Part shown: piece by piece, positions 15,379 through 15,527 of the stretch
Numbering within the stretch: the first letter of the stretch is position 1
Layout: each line of letters begins with the position of its first letter
Assembly (NCBI RefSeq): GCF_000466405.1
Contig: NZ_KE952937.1
Coordinates: 117,193-161,574, forward strand
Source of the DNA: Atopobium sp. oral taxon 810 str. F0209
GTDB taxonomy: Bacteria; Actinomycetota; Coriobacteriia; Coriobacteriales; Atopobiaceae
DNA length: 44,382 nt
Reading direction: 5' to 3'
The notes under the pieces: model-generated
Told to the model about the DNA's origin: nothing
The model's database searches: none
Seen by the model: the letters and a program-made list of their open reading frames with translations, nothing else
Made by a program: the position numbers and the translations under genes

Positions 15379-15452
15379 CGGGCACGACGCCTGTCGCCCC
15401 GGTGCGAACGTCATCCCAAGATGACGTCCCTCTGGCGTACTCATTCACGCCA
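15379..15452 (-). promoter_or_regulatory. Structured gdhA leader with three hairpins
   Basis: Between the predicted promoter and the gdhA start, the transcript can form three successive stem-loops. TGGCGT pairs with ACGCCA (15433-15452). ACGTCAT pairs with ATGACGT (15408-15427, six-base loop). A two-part stem, CGGG with CCCG enclosing CGAC with GTCG, lies at 15379-15401. The last hairpin ends 22 bases before the start codon, next to the ribosome site. I do not match it to a known riboswitch class. A regulatory leader is an inference. Confidence 0.5.
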
Positions 15453-15498
15453 AGTCTAGAGTAGGTGGGTTTTTCTTTGCCTACTAAATCAAGTATTA

Positions 15499-15527
15499 AA
15501 TTTATCTGTTACGAAACAGTTCGCCAA
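15499..15527 (-). promoter_or_regulatory. Predicted gdhA promoter
   Basis: On the minus strand TTGGCG (15522-15527) and TAAATT (15499-15504) are spaced by 17 bases. The spacer holds an inverted repeat, CTGTT-TCGT-AACAG (15506-15519), which could be an operator. The implied transcript has a leader of about 135 bases. Confidence 0.45.

Follow-up and report, generated by a model that had tools for sequence, protein, structure and literature searches.

A candidate genus-restricted structured leader RNA upstream of gdhA in Atopobium sp. oral taxon 810

The window analyzed here is a 44,382-nucleotide stretch of contig NZ_KE952937.1 (positions 117,193 to 161,574) of Atopobium sp. oral taxon 810 str. 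F0209, in which gdhA, encoding NADP-specific glutamate dehydrogenase, is preceded by the leader under study (Table 1). The gene is probably expressed as a single-gene transcript, with a likely intrinsic terminator at its 3′ end and, upstream on the same strand, a weak terminator-like site. In much of the family, as read from the upstream sequences of many genomes, a tRNA gene directly precedes gdhA; its orientation is that of gdhA in the window's own genome (G000) and in G031, and the opposite in G033, G034 and several others. Also in the neighborhood of gdhA, genes for a GntR-type regulator, a dimethylargininase-like protein and an arginine-ornithine antiporter-like protein adjoin each other (17547-20778) and likely form an arginine-use cluster. 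Comparisons were made within a family set of 140 genomes (Atopobiaceae by the names of close loci) and a class set of 396 genomes, the genus itself being represented by five species with one genome each (G000, G031, G032, G033 and G034).

Table 1. Features of the gdhA locus, in window coordinates
Feature	Position	Strand	Basis or remark
Likely intrinsic terminator 3′ of gdhA	13920..13958	-	13-pair stem followed by TTTTT; read by eye
gdhA, NADP-specific glutamate dehydrogenase, 453 aa	13996..15357	-	NCBIfam NF006929, 737.6 bits (cut-off 536)
gdhA start codon ATG	15357	-	
Ribosome site GAGAGGGGA	15361..15369	-	Within the conserved stretch UACCAUGAGARGGGRA, which is also found in G034
Hairpin H3, 9 pairs with a bulged G	15379..15401	-	Arms invariant in three species
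Hairpin H2, 10 base pairs, UUGG loop	15406..15429	-	Fold and pairing in three species
Hairpin H1, core GGCGU/ACGCC	15432..15453	-	Fold; probably forms the extreme 5′ end of the mRNA
Alternative -10 hexamer TACTCT, preferred	15458..15463	-	Probable, from alignment with the TATNCT-like hexamer of the family
Inverted repeat CTGTTTCGTAACAG	15506..15519	-	Sequence; arms conserved in G031; read as a degenerate family gdhA upstream site
Originally predicted promoter: TTGGCG (15527-15522), 17-base spacer, TAAATT (15504-15499)	15499..15527	-	Present but doubtful
tRNA gene	15595..15668	-	Same strand as gdhA in the window

The original prediction had described three successive hairpins between the promoter region and the ribosome site, the last of them close to that site, and all three were found (H1, H2 and H3), with a gap of a few bases between H3 and the gdhA ribosome site. 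The 99 bases from 15453 to 15355 fold at -41.3 kcal/mol (z -3.00), an energy equaled by 1 of 200 shuffled sequences, and a longer 137-base leader gave a z of -2.68 against its shuffles. The same energy test was unremarkable in the relatives, with z values of -0.76 in G031 and -0.24 in G033, one of the folds in this test (L062:503-603) missing the first two bases of H1. When 39 gdhA leaders of the family were ranked by the z of their last 96 bases, the window came fourth (-2.23), behind three leaders that do not carry the element (L067, -3.47; L080, -2.34; L070, -2.25). H2 was predicted to form with a pairing probability of 0.82-0.99 in G000 and G031 regardless of how much coding sequence was appended, and H3 was predicted to be mostly formed in the same two species (0.65-0.82). 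In G033, competing pairings were predicted to displace H3 once at least 36 coding bases were included, and H2 as well at 60. The Shine-Dalgarno (SD) site was partly open across all variants tried, with a mean unpaired probability of 0.36-0.65. By eye, H2 and H3 are alike (5′ GGGRCG, 3′ CGYYCGCA), most clearly in G031, as if they had arisen by tandem duplication.

The hairpins had been assigned to a leader of about 135 bases that follows a clear TTGGCG-17-TAAATT promoter. The two hexamers and their spacing are present, but they hold only 8 of 12 consensus bases, the pair was not listed by a promoter scan with a threshold of 9/12, and its TAAATT part is absent from G033, so that the promoter can hardly be called clear. 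The inverted repeat noted in its spacer is there. We collected 45 gdhA upstream regions from the 126 family genomes with a GdhA match, of which 39 remained after removal of near-duplicates, and trained a motif on 33 of these promoters, leaving out L074 and the five promoters of the genus. In 23 of these 33 other family promoters, the 17-base site CGTRTACAttTTGTTAC reaches at least 14 bits, and in 16 of the 23 it is followed 38-40 bases later by a TATNCT-like hexamer. At the corresponding place the window carries a degenerate form of the site, its best match to the 17-base motif being the palindrome region; in contrast to the other family promoters, this match scores 1.1 bits (4.6 bits in G031), and the hexamer TACTCT follows it at a spacing of 49, one helical turn beyond 38-40. 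By the promoter layout of the family, TACTCT would serve as the -10 element and transcription would start near 15451, at H1, in which case TTGGCG-17-TAAATT would not be the promoter and the gdhA leader would measure about 94 bases, beginning with H1, instead of about 135. Judging from the sequence, the palindrome resembles a degenerate copy of an activator site that precedes gdhA across the family, and with so low a motif score it may no longer be functional in the window. Within the window's genome the exact spacer repeat is found a single time, and near-matches to it are not enriched; a palindrome regulon was rejected, as CTGTTWCGNAACAG with at most two mismatches was rarer in this genome than its reversed control (16 forward and 26 reverse versus 45 and 57). 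The family site RTACANNNTGTTACR was found once per genome in 18 of the 140 genomes, and its coordinates place it directly before gdhA in 9 of them; since it is single in each genome, no wider regulon is apparent.

When the leader was used as a DNA query in BLAST searches of the 140 family genomes, G031 matched nearly its whole length at 86% identity, similarity to G033 (75%) was limited to query bases 99-196 (from about 15437 to just inside the gene), and the remaining genomes stayed at or near chance level. Since the similarity to G033 spans only these bases, conservation begins at the hairpins and not upstream of them. The leader is thus kept in two of the four other species of the genus (G031 and G033); G034 retains a weak trace, with the UACCAUGAGARGGGRA stretch kept, and in G032 the leader is absent and the sequence before gdhA is A+T-rich. 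Pairing was counted in an alignment of the three leaders (G000, G031 and G033) from H2 to the start codon. An alignment of related gdhA leaders had been proposed as a check for covariation, and for H2 it gave 29 of 30 cells paired, the exception being a G-G mismatch in G033, with 4 of the 10 pairs changed on both sides, a result as high in 5 of 500 shuffles. With a simpler substitution null, the P value for H2 was 0.08 from G000 to G031 and 0.02 from G000 to G033. Covariation that keeps base pairs, as in a conserved structured RNA element, is therefore seen here in three sequences only, all of one genus, and we regard it as suggestive, not conclusive. All nine pairs of H3 are invariant in the three species, including one G-U pair and the bulged G, and H2 and H3 together are 98.2% paired, compared to a maximum of 52.7% in slid registers. 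The comparison shows H2 and H3 to be maintained, as predicted RNA structure, in three species. The sequence of H1 is barely alignable in G033; nevertheless, its five core pairs can form in both relatives, one of them as G-U in G031 and one with changes on both sides in G033. A coding reading of the leader was also considered, as an open frame runs in phase with gdhA up to an ATG at 15444, and it was ruled out by an in-frame TAG in H1 of G031. The reading frame of H3 relative to gdhA is shifted in G033, as seen from the alignment and the upstream frames, indicating that H3 is not conserved as protein, and most proteins of the family start at the usual M(x)YS.

A covariance model built from the three leaders recovered its own training sequences with E values of 1.5e-23 (G031), 1.9e-23 (G000) and 3.6e-20 (G033), and nothing else convincing in the 140 family genomes or the 396 class genomes. 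Each of the three genomes carries one strong copy, always at gdhA, so that strong matches are confined to 3 of the 140 family genomes and to a single gene, which is not the distribution of a riboswitch conserved in many genomes upstream of related genes. Weaker matches in 17 further genomes of the 396 (E 0.002-0.05) were rejected as additional copies, their number being close to the chance expectation for 396 genomes at E 0.05 each; the match in G034 (E 0.018) was retained because it is located exactly at the start of gdhA. A pattern combining the H3 core with the ribosome site matched only G000, G031, G033 and G034 among all collected loci, and a search of further genome contigs, a collection that may lack these genomes' own records, gave no additional leader of this type. 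At the gathering score, Rfam release 15 found four tRNAs in the window and no family at the leader, and a permissive scan of 15340-15540 (E up to 5) returned two chance-level rows far under that score, an atpB RNA and a Streptomyces sRNA (E 3 and 0.84). In the portions of the literature covered, on gdhA leaders and UTR structure and on riboswitches in Atopobium, Coriobacteriia and Atopobiaceae, no such leader is described. The suggestion that this is a new RNA is borne out to that extent, and the best reading of its distribution is that of a putative genus-restricted element.

The gene below the leader has a different history. GdhA of G033 and of G034 belongs to a different deep clade from GdhA of G000, G031 and G032 (support 100/100), and shares about 66-69% identity with the window's GdhA, compared to up to 84% for proteins of other genera. 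Trigger factor, in contrast, is 96% identical to the window's in G031, 72% in G034, 70% in G033 and 67% in G032, all above the full-length matches outside the genus, which reach at most 62%. Since the GdhA clade of G033 and G034 is discordant with trigger factor kinship, we conclude that the gene body was exchanged in one lineage. G033 and G000/G031 nevertheless have in common the leader and three additional residues at the N-terminal start, so that in G033 the leader has outlived the replacement of the gene. This retention suggests selection on the leader, although it could also have stayed in place because a recombination border fell close to the start codon. Elsewhere in the family, two GdhA types, distinguished by identity, seem to alternate within genera (for example G087 versus the other g33 genomes, G044 versus G046, and G037 versus G038; loci L033-L061 and L162-L171), which suggests repeated in-place exchange of the gene. 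Taken with the conserved hairpins, the compensatory changes in H2 and a model specific to gdhA leaders, retention across the replaced gene body upholds the proposal of a cis-acting leader RNA.

What such a leader would respond to was the part of the original prediction that found no support, as the only evidence for a response to nitrogen or glutamate is the identity of the downstream gene. Sensing of glutamate, glutamine, ammonium or a related metabolite would fit a leader that precedes a nitrogen-assimilation gene, with H3 and the UACCAUGAGARGGGRA stretch strongly conserved and an SD that could be masked by CAUGA/UCAUG pairing or by a 5′ segment if the transcript is longer. A riboswitch is however quite improbable, since a single gene per genome carries the element, Rfam holds no match to it at the gathering score, the loops vary between species so that the SD region is the only conserved unpaired core, and no alternative fold is common to all three species. 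A terminator-antiterminator arrangement was not seen in the gdhA leader. The related possibility is a long leader starting near 15492, in which ACCUACUCU would pair with the SD and close over the three hairpins as a translational on/off switch. The minimum free energy fold of the 137-base leader does pair CC.CCU.CUC with the SD, and RNAalifold proposes CUCU-AGAG pairing, which in G033 becomes CCUU-AAGG with changes on both sides of one pair; the predicted pairing between the 5′ segment and the SD reaches 0.91 in G033. Nonetheless, the probability that this segment pairs with the SD is only about 0.2-0.4 in G000 and does not exceed 0.06 in G031, the bases that would pair with it coincide with the family -10 element, and this start depends on the weak promoter that G033 has not kept; we consider such a switch rather unlikely.

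That H2 and H3 are regulator-bound inverted repeats in DNA, rather than RNA hairpins, is very improbable: in the window H2 does form an almost perfect inverted repeat of 10 bases, but the changes that keep G-U pairs break the DNA symmetry (of 10 positions, 7 are Watson-Crick pairs in G031 and 8 in G033, compared to 10 and 9 RNA pairs), and H3 has the invariant G-U pair and the bulged G. The hairpins might also be chance structures without function, kept through the closeness of the species or carried along with the 5′ end at a recombination border, as would suit a comparison of three sequences of one genus in which the energy signal is absent from the relatives. We regard this as unlikely, because conservation with G033 starts at the hairpins and nearly all changes in H2 keep the pairing. 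Known trans-acting partners were also searched for. CsrA gave no match in the window's own genome, with the control positive in 3 of 14 genomes, so that a CsrA-controlled leader is not indicated, and the search for ANTAR proteins gave no match there either, its control being silent in every genome. The H1 loop AAUGAG fits the ANTAR hexaloop rule in G000, and does not in G033.

The reading we favor, with about even confidence, is that of a genus-restricted structured 5′ UTR that tunes the stability or the translation of gdhA mRNA. Its leader of about 94 bases would stack three hairpins, of which H1 would occupy or adjoin the 5′ end and H3 would come to within a few bases of the ribosome site. 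Together, H1 and the tandem formed by H2 and H3 may protect the mRNA from decay that depends on the 5′ end, the hairpins may set ribosome loading at the partly open SD site, and the invariant H3 would be a likely contact for an RNA-binding protein or a ribonuclease, while transcriptional control of gdhA would be located upstream, in a separate DNA site. The E. coli ompA leader is the type of a 5′-terminal stem-loop that stabilizes mRNA, and the gdhA leader would have in common with such stabilizers a hairpin at or near the 5′ end and further hairpins before the ribosome site; a hairpin at the transcript end itself holds only if the -10 element is TACTCT at 15463-15458. The gdhA leader differs in its tandem H2-H3 pair with an invariant H3. 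With the glutamine riboswitches, the glnA and Downstream-peptide RNAs, it has in common its place before a nitrogen-assimilation gene, and differs in lacking an Rfam match at the gathering score. A bolder version, which we think rather doubtful, is an undescribed class of cis-regulatory RNA in the genus, with a dedicated protein bound to the invariant H3, that assumed some of the control of gdhA while the ancestral DNA activator site was decaying and persisted when the gene was exchanged for a distantly related one. If the favored reading of a structured 5′ UTR is true, the leader would be a small element for post-transcriptional control of ammonium assimilation in Atopobiaceae, and a concrete case of a leader RNA staying put while the gene body beneath it was replaced. 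It would also allow two layers of gdhA control to be told apart, one a DNA site shared across the family and the other an RNA leader confined to the genus.
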